From positions 1-24,796 of the IMG/VR virus record IMGVR_UViG_3300003321_000148: a stretch of 24,796 nucleotides of DNA; one strand, given 5' to 3'. Below, piece after piece: positions 3,722-24,796 of the stretch; within the stretch, counting starts at the first letter, position 1; every line of letters starts with the position of its first letter. Source of the stretch: a virus. The translations under genes were made by a program, and so were the position numbers. A model generated the notes under the pieces. The model did no database searches and was not told where the DNA came from. It saw only the letters and a program-made list of their open reading frames with translations.

Positions 3722-4012
3722 ATGAAGATTCGTCCCATCGGAGAGAATGTGGTTGTCGAGCGTCTCGAGGAAGATACCGTGCGTGCGAGCGGACTCATCA
3801 TCCCGGATGTTGCACAGGAGAAGTCTCAGCTCGGTATCGTTGTAGGCGTAGGTCCGGGTTCGGTAACAGACACTGGTGAGCGTGTACCGATGGAGGTCTC
3901 GGTAGGAGACACCGTCGTGTTCTCTAAGTTCGGAAACAACGAGATTAAGGTTCGCGATGAGAGCTTCATTCTTCTTCGCGAAAGCGACATCTTCGGTGTC
4001 GTAGAGGACTAA
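3722..4012 (+). CDS. groES: GroES / Cpn10 co-chaperonin
   Basis: The 96-residue product matches GroES along its whole length. It begins MKIRPIGENVVVERLEEDTV, has the mobile-loop region with ASGLIIPDVAQEKSQ, then GIVVGVGPG, VSVGDTVVFSKFGNNEIK and the terminal ESFILLRESDIFGVVED. GroES caps the GroEL folding chamber; phage versions such as T4 gp31 replace or retune the host co-chaperonin to fold phage proteins. The mobile-loop hydrophobic triad is LII, close to the usual IVL-type sequence that contacts GroEL. A strong GAGGAGGAG site precedes the ATG. No GroEL gene is present in the window, so the host chaperonin is the likely partner. Confidence 0.93.
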   Translation: MKIRPIGENVVVERLEEDTVRASGLIIPDVAQEKSQLGIVVGVGPGSVTDTGERVPMEVSVGDTVVFSKFGNNEIKVRDESFILLRESDIFGVVED

Positions 4013-7196: not shown

Positions 7197-8927
7197 ATGC
7201 CAGTCGCTGAACTTGTAGACGGTCGTATCGTGCTCGGCTCCGAGTACCGCGAGCGTGAACGTATCAAATTACTTCCCGGCGCAAAGTGGGACACACACGC
7301 GCAGACGTGGTGGTGTCCTCTCTCGTGGGCGGCCTGCATTCAGTTACGCGGAATCTTCGGGGAAGACCTACAGGTAGGCGAGAGTCTCAGCACGTGGGCA
7401 CAGAATGAGCGACGGACGCGAATTGATCCGTGCCTTGCATTGAGAACGGCCGAAGACGGACCTCTCGAATACGAAGATCTCGGTCTGCGACCGTTTCAGC
7501 GAGCCGGTATTCAGTTTCTTGCGACGGCAAGACAGGCACTAATCGCGGATGACATGGGACTCGGAAAGACGGTTCAGACCATACTCGCATTTGAGGTGAT
7601 GGGAGATGATGCGTTCCCTCTTCTCGTTGTCTGTCCTAACTCGATGAAGTTTACGTGGGAGGACGAATATAAGAAGTGGGCTCCCCATCGTCGAGTGGCC
7701 GTCGTAAACGGCGGGAAGGCGACACGTCTTAAGCAAATCGCGTCGGTTCGAGACGGCGTGAACGATGTAGCGGTCATCAACTGGGAGTCACTTAGGAACC
7801 ACACGCGTCTCGCGAGTTATCCGTCAGTACGGCTTACGGACGATGAAAAGATCGAAAAGGAACTTAACGAGGTCGGATTCGTGTCTGTTGCCGCTGATGA
7901 ATGCCACAAGGCTAAGGATCCTCGCGCAAAGCAGACCAGAGCACTCTGGTATATCGGTGATAAGGCACAGAACCGCATCGCACTTACGGGAACACCCGTT
8001 GCCAACTCGCCTGAAGACATCTGGTCGATCATGCGATTCGTTGCGCCAAATGAGTGGCCTGCTAAGAGTCAAATGATCAACCGGTATGCGCTTCAGTCGT
8101 GGAACATGTTCGGTTTTATGGAGATCTGTGGCCTCAAGTCGGAGACTAAAGACGAGCTCTTTAAGATCCTTGATCCGCGCTTCATCCGACGCACTAAGGA
8201 AGCCGTCCTTACACAACTTCCTGCGAAGACGTATACGACGCGTACGGTTGAGATGACGCCTAAGCAGCGAAAGGCGTATGACGAGATTCGCAAGGTAATG
8301 ATTACTGAGCTTGAAGAGGGTATTCTCGTCGCGACGAATCCGCTCGCTAAGATGACGAGGCTCCTTCAGTTTGCATCGGCGTACGGTGAGATCGTGGACG
8401 GTAATCTCGTTCTTACCGATCCCTCGTGTAAGGTAGACGCTCTACTTGAGATCGTTGATGAACTCGGAGATCAGCGTGCGGTCGTGTTCGCGGAGTCGCG
8501 ACAGCTAATTGAGTTAGCGTATAAGCGTCTCATTCGAGCACGTCCGCACGGTCCTGGTCTTTCGGTAGGAATGATTACCGGCAACATCGATGAACACTCA
8601 CGTAAGGAAGCCGTAGACGCGTTTAACGCGGGCAAGCATAAGGTAATGCTGATGACCCTCGGTGCGGGGTCGGAGGGACTCTCATTTCCAGGCTGCTCAA
8701 CTGAGGTGTTTCTGCAAAGAAGCTTCTCCGCAGTGAAGAATAAGCAGGCTGAGGATCGCTGTCACGGAATCGGTCGCGGTGTTGAGGGAGTGTCAACGAC
8801 AATCATTGACGTAGTTGCCGAGGGAACTCTCGAGGAACGCGTTAGGGAAGTACTTCTCGAAAAGGGAGAAATGATGGAAGAGGTAGTTCGCGACGAAGAA
8901 ATACTCATGAAGTGGCTCGCAAAGTGA
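7197..8927 (+). CDS. SNF2/DEAD-like superfamily 2 helicase
   Basis: This 576-residue ATPase has an N-terminal HARP-like segment (GAKWDTHAQTWWCPLSW), then SNF2 motif I with Walker A (DDMGLGKT, about 118-125) and motif II as DECH (234-237). Motif III is LTGTP (263-267), and a C-terminal RecA lobe carries ITGN and GSEGLSF. Motif VI reads DRCHGIGR where most members have DRxHRIGQ, so one conserved Arg is replaced. It should translocate on duplex DNA, and phage versions are linked to replication, fork remodelling or strand annealing. Upstream is only a weak site (TTTTAGAAG). Its end overlaps the next gene. Confidence 0.92.
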   Translation: MPVAELVDGRIVLGSEYRERERIKLLPGAKWDTHAQTWWCPLSWAACIQLRGIFGEDLQVGESLSTWAQNERRTRIDPCLALRTAEDGPLEYEDLGLRPFQRAGIQFLATARQALIADDMGLGKTVQTILAFEVMGDDAFPLLVVCPNSMKFTWEDEYKKWAPHRRVAVVNGGKATRLKQIASVRDGVNDVAVINWESLRNHTRLASYPSVRLTDDEKIEKELNEVGFVSVAADECHKAKDPRAKQTRALWYIGDKAQNRIALTGTPVANSPEDIWSIMRFVAPNEWPAKSQMINRYALQSWNMFGFMEICGLKSETKDELFKILDPRFIRRTKEAVLTQLPAKTYTTRTVEMTPKQRKAYDEIRKVMITELEEGILVATNPLAKMTRLLQFASAYGEIVDGNLVLTDPSCKVDALLEIVDELGDQRAVVFAESRQLIELAYKRLIRARPHGPGLSVGMITGNIDEHSRKEAVDAFNAGKHKVMLMTLGAGSEGLSFPGCSTEVFLQRSFSAVKNKQAEDRCHGIGRGVEGVSTTIIDVVAEGTLEERVREVLLEKGEMMEEVVRDEEILMKWLAK

Positions 8928-15225: not shown

Positions 15226-15616
15226 AGCTGAAATAGCATGGGCTGCCGGCCTTTATGAAGGAGAAGGCTCAGGTAGTGTTGTAGGAATGGCACTGACAAT
15301 GTGTGATGAAATGCCTGTTCGCAACTTCCATAGAATCGTTGGCGTAGGTACGGTTTGGGAGAACAAGCAACTTACTAAGGCAGGTAAGAGAAGTTGGAAG
15401 TGGAAAGTAGGAAACTATGAAGGATCCTGCCACGTTCGGGATCTTTTCTGGCCTTGGTTGAGTGAAAGACGCCGACAGCAGTTTGTCTTAAGTGAAAGTA
15501 AAGCACCTACTCGTCGTTCAAATCATAATTCAGTCTGCCCAAATTGCGGTTTTGTAAGTACAGCAGCTGGAATAGTTACACATCGAAAACGATGTGATAA
15601 GGAGCAAAATGCCTAA
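15215..15616 (+). CDS. LAGLIDADG-like homing endonuclease ORF with uncertain start
   Basis: The frame is open from 15203 and encodes [16 protein letters not shown], a good match to the LAGLIDADG active-site helix (LAGFFDGEGS form). A short C-terminal domain ends in a Cys2-His-Cys-like finger (CPNCGF, then THRKRC). The first ATG (15287) lies after the active-site helix, so a functional enzyme would need a start such as CTG 15215, eight bases after AAAGGA (15201-15206). About 40% GC was counted over 15361-15420 and 15481-15540, below its neighbours, which fits a mobile element inserted after the methyltransferase gene. It may be a degenerate remnant. Only one LAGLIDADG motif is present, so it would act as a dimer. 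Confidence 0.6.
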
Positions 15617-16700
15617 GATTCGCGTCGCGATCATCGGCGTCGGGAACTGCGCCAACTCGTTCATACAGGGCCTTAGTTACTATCGAGACCTCGATGACGA
15701 CAAGCCGGTTCCCGGACTAATGCACAACGTTCTTGGCGGTTACCGCGTTAAGGACATTGAAGTTGTTGCCGCGTTTGACGTCGTCAAGGGTAAGGTCGGT
15801 CGACCTCTCTACGAGGCAATTTGGGCGAAGCCTAATGACACGATTCAGTTCGTGTCACCTGGTGAAGTTACGCGAATGACGTACGTTGGCGGTCCGATCG
15901 TTCAGCGAGGAATGGTGCACGATGGCATCGGTAAGTACCTCGCTGACGTCGTGGAGATCGACGAGAGCGAAGCGGTCGACGTAGCTGAGGTACTCAAGGA
16001 ACGTCAGGTTGACGTCGTGATTAACTACCTTCCGGTCGGATCTGAGGAAGCTGTTAAGTGGTATGTTGAGCAAATTCTCGATGCCAAGTGCGCGATGATC
16101 AATTGCATGCCGGTGTTCATCGCTCGAGAACCGTACTGGCAGAAGCGCTTTAAGAAAGCCGGTGTGCCGATCGTCGGCGACGACATCAAGTCGCAGGTGG
16201 GCGCGACGATTATCCATCGTGTACTCGCGCAGCTCTTCGATGAACGAGGCGTCAAGCTAGAAAGAACGATGCAGCTTAACGTCGGAGGTAACAGTGATTT
16301 CCTCAATATGTTGGAGCGAGAACGTCTTGCTTCGAAGAAGGAGTCAAAGACAAACGCAGTTACATCTGTTGCTGGTGTGGAATTTTGGCCCGGTAACATC
16401 CATGTTGGTCCGTCTGATCACGTCCCCTGGCTTAGTGATCGGAAGTGGGCGTACATTCGCCTGGAGGGATCAGGATTCGGGGACGTTCCACTTAACTGTG
16501 AACTTAAGTTAGAGGTATGGGATTCCCCAAACAGCGCGGGGGTTGTCGTGGACGCGGTACGTCTTGCTAAGCTAGGTCTTGATAACGGTGACACCGGAAC
16601 GCTGAACGCGGCGTCGTCATACCTAATGAAGTCACCGCCTGTTCAGATTCGCGATGACAAAGCGCGAGAGCAGCTCGAATCATTCATTCGTCACTCGTAG
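15609..16700 (+). CDS. ino1: myo-Inositol-1-phosphate synthase
   Basis: The 363-residue product matches the short actinobacterial/archaeal type of MIPS. It starts [18 protein letters not shown] (NAD-binding Gly motif) and YYRD, and continues with [30 protein letters not shown] and the conserved [12 protein letters not shown]. Next come [11 protein letters not shown] and [13 protein letters not shown] with active-site lysines. It converts glucose-6-phosphate to inositol-1-phosphate. Such genes are unusual in phages. The ATG at 15609 has AAGGAG (15599-15604) and overlaps the preceding ORF by eight bases; the ATG at 15594 is less well placed. The HAD phosphatase that follows could release inositol. 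Confidence 0.95.
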
Positions 16701-21329: not shown

Positions 21330-21710
21330 ATGGAACTTAAAGAAGAGATTCCCTTCGTTTCGAAGATCGTGTCGGCGCCTAAGCAGATAAGAAGGCCGTC
21401 TGATTTACTTGCTGAGCGTCAGTCATATATGCGTCGAATCTTACGCGATCAGCCGTCGGTTGAACAGTTACTAAAACACGCTGAACGGTTCGGGACGGAT
21501 CAGGTACCCGAGACCGCTGCTGAACTAGGCTACGGCGCAGAGACGTTGGAGAGGATCATCGATAAGTGTGACCTCATCGACGCCGCCGAGTTTCGGAAGC
21601 TTCATCCTCACGGAAAAACTCCGCGAGGAGGGAAGTCCGCCGAGGAGCGCGCCAAGCTCCTAATCGGAGACGACGAGGTAGAGTTAGAGAATGGTACAGG
21701 TAGTAGTTAA
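21330..21710 (+). CDS. Hypothetical helical protein
   Basis: A strong AAGGAGGAGGAG site precedes the ATG at 21330. The 126-residue protein is charged and helix-rich (RPSDLLAERQSYMRRILRDQ; VEQLLKHAERFG), with TAAELGYGAETLERIIDKCD resembling a helix-turn-helix recognition segment and an acidic tail (GDDEVELENGTGSS). A DNA-binding role is possible. Its end overlaps the next small frame by 20 bases. I do not recognise the family. Confidence 0.7.
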   Translation: MELKEEIPFVSKIVSAPKQIRRPSDLLAERQSYMRRILRDQPSVEQLLKHAERFGTDQVPETAAELGYGAETLERIIDKCDLIDAAEFRKLHPHGKTPRGGKSAEERAKLLIGDDEVELENGTGSS

Positions 21711-21843
21711 GGGAGGAACGAATGCCGGACGACGACGCCCCCTTAAGGAACCCTACGGAGCTAGGTGGATTTGTAAACACGATGTCAAACACGAAAGCTA
21801 CGTCCGCAAAGCAATCTGCGGTTGTAAGCGACCTAAGGAGTGA
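21691..21843 (+). CDS. 50-residue Cys/His microprotein, probable zinc binder
   Basis: The ATG at 21691 opens a 50-residue frame ending TGA at 21843, immediately before the membrane operon. The product starts MVQVVVKGGTNAGRRRPLKE and then contains WICKHDVKHESYV and ICGCKR; its Cys and His could bind zinc. The exact junction with the next gene and the sensible composition support it. A competing frame from ATG 21722 has a better ribosome binding site but its second half merely shadows the next gene. Confidence 0.5.
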   Translation: MVQVVVKGGTNAGRRRPLKEPYGARWICKHDVKHESYVRKAICGCKRPKE

Positions 21844-22335
21844 GTGTACTTGCCAAAGGTACTTTCGAAGACGAAACTGTCCGAAGCACGGTCACGAAAA
21901 CTTTTCCTTCACCTCACTCTCCTTAGCGCGCTCTCCGCGCTCATCCTCGCAGCGCTAGGAATTACGTACGCGAAGCAAATTTCTGGACCGTCACTCGTCG
22001 TAATCCCGATCATTCTCATTGTGTATGCACTAACACTGGCATATGCCGGAGGACTCTGCTGGAAGGCAGACGGAGCTGACTACGCACAGAGGGAGCGAAT
22101 CCTACACGAGGCTGACAACATTACGTTCTGGGCGTGGGTCGTGCAGATGATCGGCATTCTCGGAACTGTCTTTGGCTTCTGGCACATTCTCGCAAAGGGC
22201 GGTACCGATGCCGACCTACACGCGCGAATCCTCGACGGCGGCGGCGTCGCCCTCACAGGCACATTCGTCGGTGTTTACTGTTCGATCGTTCTATCACGTG
22301 CTTATAGAATGATTGAACACGACCTAAGGGGTTAG
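21844..22335 (+). CDS. MotA/TolQ/ExbB-like ion channel protein
   Basis: Four membrane segments are seen at about residues 21-43, 49-73, 94-116 and 134-152. The third holds MIGILGTVFGFWHIL and the fourth GGGVALTGTFVGVYCSIVL, the paired motif of MotA, TolQ and ExbB stators, whose channel passes protons or sodium. At 163 residues it is smaller than MotA and has a short cytoplasmic loop between segments 2 and 3. AAGGAG (21835-21840) lies 3 bases from GTG 21844 and 9 bases from TTG 21850, so the latter may be the true start. The next gene encodes the expected single-pass partner. Confidence 0.75.
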   Translation: MYLPKVLSKTKLSEARSRKLFLHLTLLSALSALILAALGITYAKQISGPSLVVIPIILIVYALTLAYAGGLCWKADGADYAQRERILHEADNITFWAWVVQMIGILGTVFGFWHILAKGGTDADLHARILDGGGVALTGTFVGVYCSIVLSRAYRMIEHDLRG

Positions 22336-22338
22336 CAC

Positions 22339-22938
22339 GTGCATAAGAACCCGCTCGTAGCCGGTTTCGACCTCGTTACTGTTCTTATGATGATGTTCCT
22401 AATTTTGGCACTGACTGACAAGCCCAAGCAGCCGACCGTACCGACGTTCGGGCAGTTTGCCGTCACGATTACGTGGAAGGATAAGTCGAATGACGACGTC
22501 GATCTGTACGTTCGCGATCCGTCGGGTAATATTGCGTACTTCGGGTACCCAAGCATCGGTCTAATGCACCTCGAACAAGACGACCTAGGATACGGAATTA
22601 CCGGTTATCAGACACTGCCGAACGGACGTTCCGTCACCGTAACGTACAACGGTGAACGTACGGTAATTTCGGGAATCATCCCCGGCGAGTACACCGTTAA
22701 TGTACACATGTATCGAAAGAGCGACCCGGGCCCGACGACAGTAGACGTAAGCCTCTGGAGCCTACGAGGATCAGACGAAGTTTTGCTTCATAAGATCATC
22801 ACACTTGAGAAGTCCGGTGACGAGGTTACGGTCTGGAGATTTACCGCCAACGAACGCGGAGAAATCTCTGACGTAAACTCTCGACCTGTTACTCTGGTCT
22901 ATAACAAGTATTCGTCGATCCAGGGAAGTAATCCGTGA
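22339..22938 (+). CDS. MotB/ExbD/TolR-like partner with DUF2135-like domain
   Basis: A short cytoplasmic N-terminus leads into one membrane helix, GFDLVTVLMMMFLILALT, with Asp11 placed as the ion-carrying Asp of MotB, ExbD and TolR (compare ADFMTAMMAFF in MotB). The remaining ~160 residues are outside the membrane and beta-rich: TITWKDKSNDDVDLYVRDPS and DDLGYGITGYQTLPNG resemble the DUF2135 fold. The usual peptidoglycan-binding domain of MotB is absent. AAGGGG at 22325-22330 and the GTG at 22339 are suitably spaced, three bases after the channel gene. The end overlaps the next gene by GTGA. Confidence 0.7.
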   Translation: MHKNPLVAGFDLVTVLMMMFLILALTDKPKQPTVPTFGQFAVTITWKDKSNDDVDLYVRDPSGNIAYFGYPSIGLMHLEQDDLGYGITGYQTLPNGRSVTVTYNGERTVISGIIPGEYTVNVHMYRKSDPGPTTVDVSLWSLRGSDEVLLHKIITLEKSGDEVTVWRFTANERGEISDVNSRPVTLVYNKYSSIQGSNP

Positions 22939-23465
22939 CAGGCGCACCGATCTTCATCGCACTAGTCGTTACGAACGCTCTCCTTCTCTGGCTTCTAATC
23001 AAGACGAGAGGTCACTGGGCTCTTCGGTTCGGCGCAATTCTCTTCGTTCTCGTGTTTACCGCCGTCGCCTGGTACTCGATTGAGTCCTACCGGGGATGGC
23101 CTACAACCAGCTCACTGCCCAAGCGGGTGGTGTTTCTTAGTGCCGTCATCCACGAACCCACGACCCAGGACAGAGGATCAATCGACTTATGGGCGGTTCC
23201 GCTCGAGCACGGTTTTGATCCGCTAGGTTATCATCCTTCACAGTACGAACCGCGAGCGTACCGAATGCGGTATTCTGAACCGCTTGAGCGTGCCGTGTTA
23301 AATGCGCAGAAGTTAAGAAAGAGCGGTCACGGGCGTCCGGTAGAACTAGACCTAAGTCCGTCTAAGAACAAGATTAACTCAAGTAGCGGTAGACGAATTC
23401 CGAAGTGGGCGGTTCGCTTCTATCGCCTACCTCATGAACAGACACCCCGAAAGGAACGATCGTGA
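22935..23465 (+). CDS. Membrane protein with two transmembrane segments
   Basis: The 176-residue product has helices at about residues 4-22 (PIFIALVVTNALLLWLLI) and 32-48 (GAILFVLVFTAVAWY). A soluble domain of ~125 residues follows, containing KRVVFLSAVIHEPTTQDRG and IDLWAVPLEHGFDPLGY, then a basic end. With two helices the domain should be on the same side as the N-terminus, probably cytoplasmic. The GTG at 22935 overlaps the previous stop and the end overlaps the next start. Coupling to the MotA/MotB-like pair implies a shared complex, but I do not recognise the family. Confidence 0.7.
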   Translation: MTGAPIFIALVVTNALLLWLLIKTRGHWALRFGAILFVLVFTAVAWYSIESYRGWPTTSSLPKRVVFLSAVIHEPTTQDRGSIDLWAVPLEHGFDPLGYHPSQYEPRAYRMRYSEPLERAVLNAQKLRKSGHGRPVELDLSPSKNKINSSSGRRIPKWAVRFYRLPHEQTPRKERS

Positions 23466-23827
23466 TTAAGAAGGTAGCTCCGTGGATCGTAATGATGACA
23501 CTACTTATCGGTTCAGTTTGCGGACTTATCTTCATTCACTGGGACGGTACGAAAAAGAGTAATCTCACTACCTCGCAGGATGACGTCAACCTCGCGATGA
23601 ATATCGGTTTCAGCTTTCTACACTACGTAAATCAGTCAGATCAATTTAGGAGTCGCGGCGTAACCGCCCTAGGTATTGAGGGATGTAAGGTAGAGAAGAA
23701 GATTACCTGTCGTTACATTCTTAACGCGCAGGGACACGTGGTTTGCATGGACGTTAAGTTCAATCGAGATCGTACAATTCTCGGATCGGTTCCTCGTCCT
23801 AACGCAACATGCGGTCTTCCCTCATGA
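23462..23827 (+). CDS. Membrane-anchored extracytoplasmic protein with four cysteines
   Basis: One N-terminal helix (about residues 7-27, APWIVMMTLLIGSVCGLIFI) acts as a signal anchor, followed by a ~90-residue domain exposed outside. It carries four Cys outside the helix (GCKVEKKITC, VVCMDV and ATCGLPS), which could form two disulfides. The N-terminal Lys residues fit a cytoplasmic start. The GTG at 23462 and the ATGA end tie it to the neighbouring operon genes. No family is recognised, but the position suggests it works with the DUF2135-like protein outside the membrane. Confidence 0.7.
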   Translation: MIKKVAPWIVMMTLLIGSVCGLIFIHWDGTKKSNLTTSQDDVNLAMNIGFSFLHYVNQSDQFRSRGVTALGIEGCKVEKKITCRYILNAQGHVVCMDVKFNRDRTILGSVPRPNATCGLPS

Positions 23828-24796
23828 CGACACGTAAACGATTCACACGGATCGCGACACTAGCGGCCGTATTCGAGTCGCCGATTCTTGTCTGGTACTT
23901 TCACCATCAGCACGGCTACCCGTGGCGCGGTGCAGTCGCATTAACATTACTAACGATCGGTGCATTTCGCGCGTGCGTTGACATTCTTCTAAAGAATCTA
24001 CTTGAGCACCCCAACCTCTTCGAGAACAACTCCAAGGAGGAACGAGATGATGACGCGCGCTACAAGAGGCGTGTCTCGTTCTGGGTACATAAGGCAAAGT
24101 GGGCCGCGCTGTTTCTCGGATATGTCGTAACTGTCTGGGGCACCGCAAGACTGATTGGTCACCCGGTTAAGTTCGGAACGGTCTTTTACTTCATTCCCTC
24201 ATATCTACACGGAAACATCAGTCCGTCAATGCTCTTCCAGCTTCCGATGCTCTTCTTCTTTAACTTCATTATCTTCATGGGTCCGATGATGCTGATGGGT
24301 GTCTCGCAAATTCGCGCGTATGAACCCGGTGACGCGACATGGGGTGTCAAGCTCGACGACGTACGCGGCCAGAAGGAGGTTAAGGATGAGATCAGTAAGA
24401 TCATCACGCTCTGGCAGGCGGGAGACCACTTTAGAAAGTTCGGTGGTAAAAGTGAAAGAGGTATTCTCTTCCTCGGTGCTCCCGGCACTGGCAAGACGAT
24501 GCTAGCGAAGGCGATCGCTACAGGATTCAACTCACCGATCGTCACAATTCCAGGTTCCGGCTTTGCGCAGACGTTCATCGGTATCGACGTTCTGATCGTT
24601 CGCTGGCTAGTTCGCAAGGCGAAGAAGCTCGCGCGCAAGTGGGGCGGCCAGTGCATCGTCTTCATCGACGAGATCGACGCCGTCGGCCGCCGGCGCGCGG
24701 GCGTGACGAGCATGCAGCCGTCGTCGCTCGAGGACCTGCTGTTCTACGGGCCGCACGGGGCGCTGAACCCGAGCGGCGACCTGATCCTCGAGACGC
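23824..24796 (+). CDS. FtsH-like membrane AAA ATPase (3' end beyond window)
   Basis: The frame is open to the window end (324 residues so far). Several hydrophobic segments at about 12-28, 93-111 and 138-162 precede an AAA module. That module has the linker WGVKLDDVRGQKEVKDEI, Walker A GAPGTGKT (218-225), pore-like FIGI, and Walker B IVFIDEID (278-285), the signature of FtsH-type ATPases. FtsH normally carries a zinc protease domain after this point, so it cannot be judged here. The start overlaps the previous stop (ATGA). From about 24620 the DNA shifts to about 71% GC, so the end may not belong to the same molecule. Confidence 0.8.
   Translation, partial: MTTRKRFTRIATLAAVFESPILVWYFHHQHGYPWRGAVALTLLTIGAFRACVDILLKNLLEHPNLFENNSKEERDDDARYKRRVSFWVHKAKWAALFLGYVVTVWGTARLIGHPVKFGTVFYFIPSYLHGNISPSMLFQLPMLFFFNFIIFMGPMMLMGVSQIRAYEPGDATWGVKLDDVRGQKEVKDEISKIITLWQAGDHFRKFGGKSERGILFLGAPGTGKTMLAKAIATGFNSPIVTIPGSGFAQTFIGIDVLIVRWLVRKAKKLARKWGGQCIVFIDEIDAVGRRRAGVTSMQPSSLEDLLFYGPHGALNPSGDLILET

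Follow-up and report, generated by a model that had tools for sequence, protein, structure and literature searches.

The stretch of DNA analysed here (the window) is a complete IMG/VR virus record of 24.8 kb (IMGVR_UViG_3300003321_000148; 24,796 nucleotides), a linear fragment. Phage early-region genes recognised in it encode thymidylate synthase, an integrase, Cpn10, DNA polymerase I, an SNF2 helicase, a PD-(D/E)XK nuclease, a cytosine methylase and an inositol-phosphate synthase; no tRNA genes were found in the window. At positions 21844-24796 five open reading frames (ORFs) follow one another on one strand, the first three (A-B-C) being the candidate motor cassette that is the subject of this work:

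21844..22335, plus strand: A, channel subunit of the MotA/TolQ/ExbB family, 163 amino acids
22339..22938, plus strand: B, single-helix partner with Asp11 and a periplasmic DUF2135-related beta domain of predicted TerD-like fold
22935..23465, plus strand: C, membrane hairpin of two helices, followed by a soluble C-terminal domain
23462..23827, plus strand: D, small protein with a single helix and three cysteines that are conserved
23824..24796, plus strand: E, membrane AAA protein resembling FtsH, its gene represented by the 5' part

A preliminary description of this DNA had the genes that follow the first two joined by GTGA/ATGA overlaps. Such overlaps are present at B/C (GTGA, 22935-22938), C/D (GTGA, 23462-23465) and D/E (ATGA, 23824-23827); A and B are separated by a gap of 3 nucleotides and do not overlap.

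A contains the motifs GILGTVFGF and GGGVALTGTFVG, with which it had been described as a protein of the MotA/TolQ/ExbB type, and it matched the Pfam family MotA_ExbB with an E-value of 3.8e-6 and 27.1 bits, above the curated cut-off of 22.9. The same family was matched individually by 20 of 25 diverse A relatives (E <= 0.01). When A-family profiles were compared with the PDB, MotA scored best (5.3e-7, 9.9e-7), followed by PomA, TolQ, ZorA and ExbB, and little else was found. AlphaFold modelled A (predicted local distance difference test, pLDDT, 87.8) as a four-helix protein whose cytoplasmic loop is very short; the final helix (122-162) closes the 163-residue chain. The best fold matches of this model among natural proteins were ExbB (Z 12.3), TolQ (12.0), ZorA (10.7) and MotA (9.5); because helical bundles can reach Z values of about 12 by chance, these matches count only together with the sequence evidence. 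A starts with GTG following AAGGAG, and comparison with two related contigs (L003 and L004, see below; L numbers denote loci) indicates that the true start could lie further downstream. Immediately upstream of A two small overlapping ORFs were noted (window 21691-21958), one of 50 amino acids with its TGA stop directly before the GTG of A and one of 78 amino acids extending 115 nucleotides into A; neither arrangement is present in L004.

The pore residues of A (G104, T108, A136, G139 and T140) correspond in a profile alignment to G154, T158, A182, T185 and T186 of PomA (numbering by u139872). Among 127 unique A homologues G104 was conserved in 125, T or S at position 108 in 122, A136 in 119 and T or S at position 140 in 111. 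In PomAB the five aligned PomA residues hold sodium (PMC10374538); sodium motors conserve T158, T185 and T186, and the proton motors in that comparison have alanine in place of T158 and T185 (PMC10374538). The full PomA-type threonine triad (T/TT) was present in 84 of the 127 unique A proteins, and most A relatives would, we infer from their sequences, be sodium motors. The A protein of the window has the pattern T/GT (T108, G139, T140), that is, two of the three threonines of the Na+ site. Because the middle PomA threonine is missing, the motor of the window appears likelier to be H+-driven, and its group is probably one of proton motors. Three related contigs have T/AT (L002), S/GT (L003) and T/GS (L004) at these sites.

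B has a single transmembrane (TM) helix, predicted at residues 5-26, in which Asp11 was invariant, first in 27 and then in 32 aligned homologues from phages and cells; we take its position to be that of the relay aspartate in MotB, ExbD and ZorB. The single-helix partner with an ion-relay aspartate and, in place of a peptidoglycan-binding domain, a DUF2135-like one, as the preliminary description had it, was thus borne out. Comparison of the B head with DUF2135 by hhalign gave a score of 80.4 (Prob 97.8, E 7.8e-13, 121 columns), and 30 column-shuffled control profiles reached scores of at most 22.3. The B profile also recovered the large DUF2135 proteins of two genomes (3.4e-10, 6.1e-7). Single-sequence scans with Pfam PF09906 (DUF2135) gave no match in 27 B members, and no B member had a profile match to an OmpA/ExbD-type periplasmic domain. 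PPC, considered as the family of B, was rejected, its match being weak and below the cut-off; it led only to the same beta class.

In the AlphaFold model of B (pLDDT 89) the helix is followed by an all-beta domain (about residues 37-190). Foldseek by itself returned nothing useful for B; a second structure comparison matched the model to TerD-type chains with Z values of 11.1 (3.6 A, 138 residues aligned), 9.9, 9.5 and 8.5. Other matches were an SCP2 model (Z 9.3) and a radial-spoke protein (9.1), after which the values dropped to 5.9; those below about Z 6 (toxins, adhesins, p53, antibodies) were taken as generic beta sandwiches. The head of B is, on this model, predicted to have a TerD-like fold. 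Sequence homology to TerD was rejected (hhalign score 17.7, shuffles up to 19.8). Searches for TerD and DUF2135 in nine cellular genomes with the cassette found none, and therefore no Ter system accompanies it. The residues invariant in 32 B sequences are D11, W46, D53, V54, D55, V58, P61, D81, D82, G84 and E106; D53, D55, D81, D82 and E106 fall within the beta domain, and one might guess that this Asp/Glu cluster is a putative metal (Ca2+) site.

C has two TM helices, with the motif G[WY]P after helix 2. Because the loop between the helices is net positive in 20 of 21 members, the C-terminal domain is predicted from the positive-inside rule to lie outside the membrane (N-out/C-out). No common Pfam family and no PDB match were found for C. 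D has one TM helix and three cysteines conserved in the alignment; among the loci fetched it was found in the window, L002, L003 and L004 and nowhere else. The two further membrane-anchored proteins announced earlier are thus C and D, and the FtsH-like AAA gene is E, in which an N-terminal membrane part precedes an AAA module of the FtsH type (match to NCBIfam FtsH_fam at 2e-33 within the portion that the contig retains). The start of E is best placed at the ATG at 23824. The gene is cut by the contig end inside the AAA domain, so that the M41 protease part lies beyond the window; full-length relatives in L002 and L003 contain HEAGH and match Peptidase_M41 over the cut-off (6.5e-24, 4.4e-27), and the best PDB match of the L003 protein was FtsH (2.5e-51). 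E-type genes with high scores occurred only in the phage group of the window. After Walker B (window 24700-24796) E reads GVTSMQPSSLEDLLFYGPHGALNPSGDLILET, versus a glycine-rich insert in L002, L003 and L004.

Since A diverges too fast to serve as a query, neither a scan of viral contigs for close relatives with A as the sole query nor a tblastn search of isolated phages with A returned a match; B was the productive query. With B, tblastn found 27 phage records, nearly all of Rhizobium/Sinorhizobium phages and annotated as 'hypothetical'. In RHph_N3_19, RHph_Y68, 16-3 and RL38J1 the B homologue is preceded by an ExbB-like gene and followed by a C-like one. A search with E found three related viral contigs (L002, L003 and L004). 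The order A-B-C-D-E recurs in two further viral contigs from soil, L003 and L004, and is therefore far beyond chance; in L002 A-B-C-D stand together and E is about 5 kb away. An alignment-based scan with B yielded 58 viral loci. Iterated profile searches placed A upstream of B in 64 viral loci, to which L002 is added (65 of 66), and showed C following B in 61 of the 66; neighbouring genes usually share a short overlap. The viral loci form 29 groups at 75% identity, some of them on contigs above 250 kb; as L011 duplicates L004, L012 duplicates L003 and L064 duplicates 16-3, all these counts are of loci and not of independent events.

A scan of bacterial genomes added 80 loci; A stands upstream of B in 76 of these, and C downstream in 71. 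The chromosomal cassettes belong to Alpha-, Beta- and Gammaproteobacteria, with a few more on Patescibacteria-labelled contigs, and Azospirillum megaplasmids carry near-identical copies. Among the 299 Pseudomonadota genomes sampled, about 13 (about 4%) contain B with strong scores; in the Patescibacteria sample 1 of 380 genomes does. The earlier notion of a five-gene phage operon must accordingly be narrowed: the order is kept in L003 and L004 and the cassette is present in viral loci, but the conserved unit is A-B-C, D and E being confined to the window's own phage group, and it is not specific to phages. In the open-access literature, to which the search was confined, no account of the A-B-C cassette was found.

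Between viral pairs, pairs with saturated synonymous rates excluded, the ratio of nonsynonymous to synonymous substitution rates (dN/dS) lay between 0.07 and 0.15 in A, between 0.07 and 0.31 in B and between 0.16 and 0.56 in C. These values show purifying selection: all three genes are maintained for function, with the tightest constraint on A. Viral and cellular sequences are intermixed in a tree built from 61 B proteins, and supported branches force at least four changes of label; branches are long and bootstraps unsettled, so deep placements are rough. In this tree the window's group neighbours three Patescibacteria-type contigs (L069-L071); on L070 a gene for a ribosomal protein was recognised by eye. 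The cassette was noted on Patescibacteria-type contigs in L069, L070, L071 and L093, from genomes of about 1 Mb, and L093 falls among alphaproteobacterial sequences in the tree. Patescibacteria-labelled copies are rare and binning errors are possible. Patescibacteria as a regular host or source were set aside, given the frequency in the sampled genomes (see above); the sister grouping with L069-L071 is just a hint.

A recurrent-neighbour test of the 80 cellular loci recognised no other recurrent neighbour as a partner, and no TonB/TolA, TolB, Pal or receptor gene was recurrent in them; by the same test no flagellar genes stand by the cassette and the cellular copies lie outside defence islands. 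No recurrent neighbour of the ZorC/ZorD/ZorE kind was seen in viral or cellular loci. In some phages a gene for a trypsin-like serine protease (Trypsin_2) borders directly on the cassette. Two separate arrangements were seen: the protease gene lies downstream of C in L015, L038, L040, L042, L044, L046 and L052, and upstream of A in 16-3, L056, L065 and L066. In other phage records it is some kb off, far away or absent. The records within each arrangement are related, which reduces them to two or three events. L009 was also listed with a trypsin-like protease directly upstream of A. The trypsin-type neighbours, together with the FtsH-type E in the window's group, hint at a protease link of the cassette. 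An SbmA/BacA-like transporter gene (1.5e-135) and a ClpP-like gene were noted near the cassette in L013 (9568-10563), L014 and L030, one of these contigs being 328 kb long, and a gene for a SleB-like cell-wall hydrolase, recognised by eye, in three viral groups (L025, 5383-5868; L061/L062; L063).

In the window and in Rhizobium phages the cassette sits among replication and nucleotide genes, away from lysis genes. Upstream of A lies one further gene, which in L004 is kept directly before A:

21330..21710, plus strand: small upstream gene

It resembles L004 5610-6032, judged by eye (AERFGT..., ETGYGADA/ELGYGAET), and was assigned to no family in profile scans. Elsewhere in the window a single minus-strand tyrosine recombinase gene (1212-1865) stands within an otherwise plus-strand early region and suggests a temperate phage. 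A Cpn10 (GroES) gene lies at 3722-4012; no Cpn60-sized gene was recognised within the fragment. The SNF2 helicase gene (7197-8927) is about 13 kb from the motor genes; its product had as best match in a defence library the helicase part of ZorD (3e-53), with DpdE and DrmD nearly as good, and it is without the N-terminal part of ZorD. The nearest relatives of the myo-inositol-1-phosphate synthase (15594-16700) in isolated phages are from Stenotrophomonas and Caulobacter phages (about 39% identity), and the DNA polymerase is closest to actinophage enzymes (about 33%).

Known ion motors of 5:2 stoichiometry serve flagella, gliding, Ton/Tol, secretion and Zorya. Taking the above observations into account, A and B probably make up, as its two subunits, a small ion-driven motor akin to MotAB, ExbBD, TolQR and ZorAB, with a new head. 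Homology with these systems makes an A5:B2 assembly, with ions flowing past Asp11, the most likely mode of operation, to which we attach good confidence; because C is constantly linked to A-B, it too is likely to be part of the machine. The new elements are the DUF2135-related head of B, which replaces a peptidoglycan-binding or ExbD/TolR domain, and the third subunit C. The preliminary description would have yielded to a lack of MotA_ExbB or ExbD homology or to an unconserved gene order in relatives; neither materialised. In the mechanism envisaged, five A subunits would surround two B helices, ions would pass Asp11 of B where it faces the ring of hydroxyl residues contributed by A, and the two subunits would turn or shift relative to one another. 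C, whose membrane hairpin would add an outside domain of its own, might transmit force or act as a gate. The cassette would be made early in infection and placed in the host inner membrane, where the motor may act on the host envelope, altering or stabilising it, so that the infected cell would resist superinfection or stress; a co-encoded protease, of the FtsH type here, may adjust the machine or its targets.

Several points weigh against this interpretation. The Z value of about 12 for the A model is within the chance range for helical bundles, the counts in 127 homologues take in near relatives and hence are not independent, and a Pfam ExbD/MotB match for B was not found. Metal binding by B is a guess, and TerD sequence profiles fail to match it. 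The 5:2 stoichiometry, the ion flow and the movement would follow from homology, and early expression from gene position.

From MotAB and PomAB, with which it shares the four-helix layout of A, the best scores of the A-family profile and, in most A relatives, the residues of the Na+ site, the cassette differs in having neither the torque-generating cytoplasmic domain nor the OmpA-like anchor. The B head is homologous to DUF2135 (YfaP-type) by profile comparison, but B falls below the Pfam threshold, and in B the domain is attached to an Asp-bearing helix of the motor type. The head is like TerD in predicted fold but differs in having no significant sequence similarity and in being attached to a membrane helix. 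E shares with FtsH (M41) the membrane anchor and AAA module and, in full-length relatives, the protease motif, but it is divergent, with an insert after Walker B, and is a neighbour of the cassette rather than a conserved member.

As to the role in phages, we prefer envelope remodelling or superinfection exclusion, itself a tentative assignment, to a housekeeping function carried along, a decoy or a pore. A device for superinfection exclusion or inter-phage defence in which the B head senses the disturbance of the envelope caused by an incoming phage and the motor opens and drains the ion gradient or pulls on the envelope, like ZorAB without a nuclease arm, is rather unlikely. A is homologous to ZorA, both systems pair a MotA/ExbB-type subunit with a single-helix Asp subunit, and the cassette is positioned among early genes, its carriers including phage 16-3, whose close relative AP-16-3 has been called temperate, and large Pootjesviridae. 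ZorAB action needs ion flow, and D24 of ZorB, set against a Ser/Thr ring as Asp11 would be, is needed for function (PMC11890865). However, Zorya also requires peptidoglycan binding by ZorB and the tail of ZorA (PMC11890865), both absent here; no ZorC, ZorD or ZorE appears in any recurrent neighbour family or adjoins the cassette, and by the recurrent-neighbour test the cellular copies lie outside defence islands. With the peptidoglycan head, the long ZorA tail and the partner genes missing, membership in Zorya was rejected. Rated just as unlikely is a Ton/Tol-like energiser, a cellular motor for envelope maintenance or uptake that phages acquired to keep the infected cell sound. The free-standing three-gene locus in proteobacterial chromosomes, in about 13 of the 299 Pseudomonadota sampled, fits it, as do the megaplasmid copies of Azospirillum and the interleaved tree, and the three consecutive membrane genes, A being homologous to ExbB and TolQ, recall ExbB-ExbD-TonB. 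Against it, the four-helix A has only a minimal cytoplasmic portion, the B head is unlike ExbD/TolR and has no detectable domain of that family, C is a two-helix hairpin, versus one helix in TonB/TolA, with no TonB/TolA match detectable in Pfam and PDB searches, and no TonB/TolA-like, TolB, Pal or receptor gene recurs alongside. Patescibacteria are held to lack an outer membrane, so the carriers so labelled, if correctly binned, misfit an outer-membrane job. Ton/Tol membership thus fails on partner genes and head; the failure of both memberships leaves the claim of a 5:2 motor unweakened.

The two remaining alternatives are improbable. A phage A or B that enters host ExbBD, TolQR or MotAB complexes and poisons them could explain the short A and the altered B head, which might form mixed inactive rings, and a Ton/Tol block would be expected to stop other phages; yet the relay aspartate and the pore hydroxyls, neither of which a decoy would need, are conserved, and A, B and C travel as a set that is present in cells too. 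A depolarising pore or pinholin-like lysis helper, which we regard as very improbable, is suggested by the small multi-span A and, in three viral groups, by the SleB-like hydrolase gene close to the cassette, but the position of the genes outside a lysis module, in the window and in annotated Rhizobium phages, disfavours it, a conserved DUF2135 head and a third subunit would be superfluous for a pore, and chromosomal copies exist.

In its widest form, which we put forward as speculative, the motor interpretation would make A-B-C an unnamed class of ion-driven rotary machine and the first such motor that is regular in phage genomes: a minimal MotA-like ring would turn two DUF2135/TerD-like, possibly calcium-binding heads in the periplasm with the two-helix C as force transmitter, driven mostly by Na+ and, after a switch in the window's group, by H+, and would remodel the host envelope together with a membrane or periplasmic protease, of the FtsH type in the window and of the trypsin type in two other phage lineages. 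The natural series of full and partial Na+ sites among A homologues is ready for studies of ion selectivity, and the cassette can be tested directly in Azospirillum and in Rhizobium phages that grow in culture (16-3, RHph_N3_19, Pootjesviridae). As a conserved, selected and unannotated branch with a different periplasmic head, it adds a new output module to the family of 5:2 motors, and the presence of motor genes in about 29 divergent viral groups raises the question of what a virus gains from a motor.

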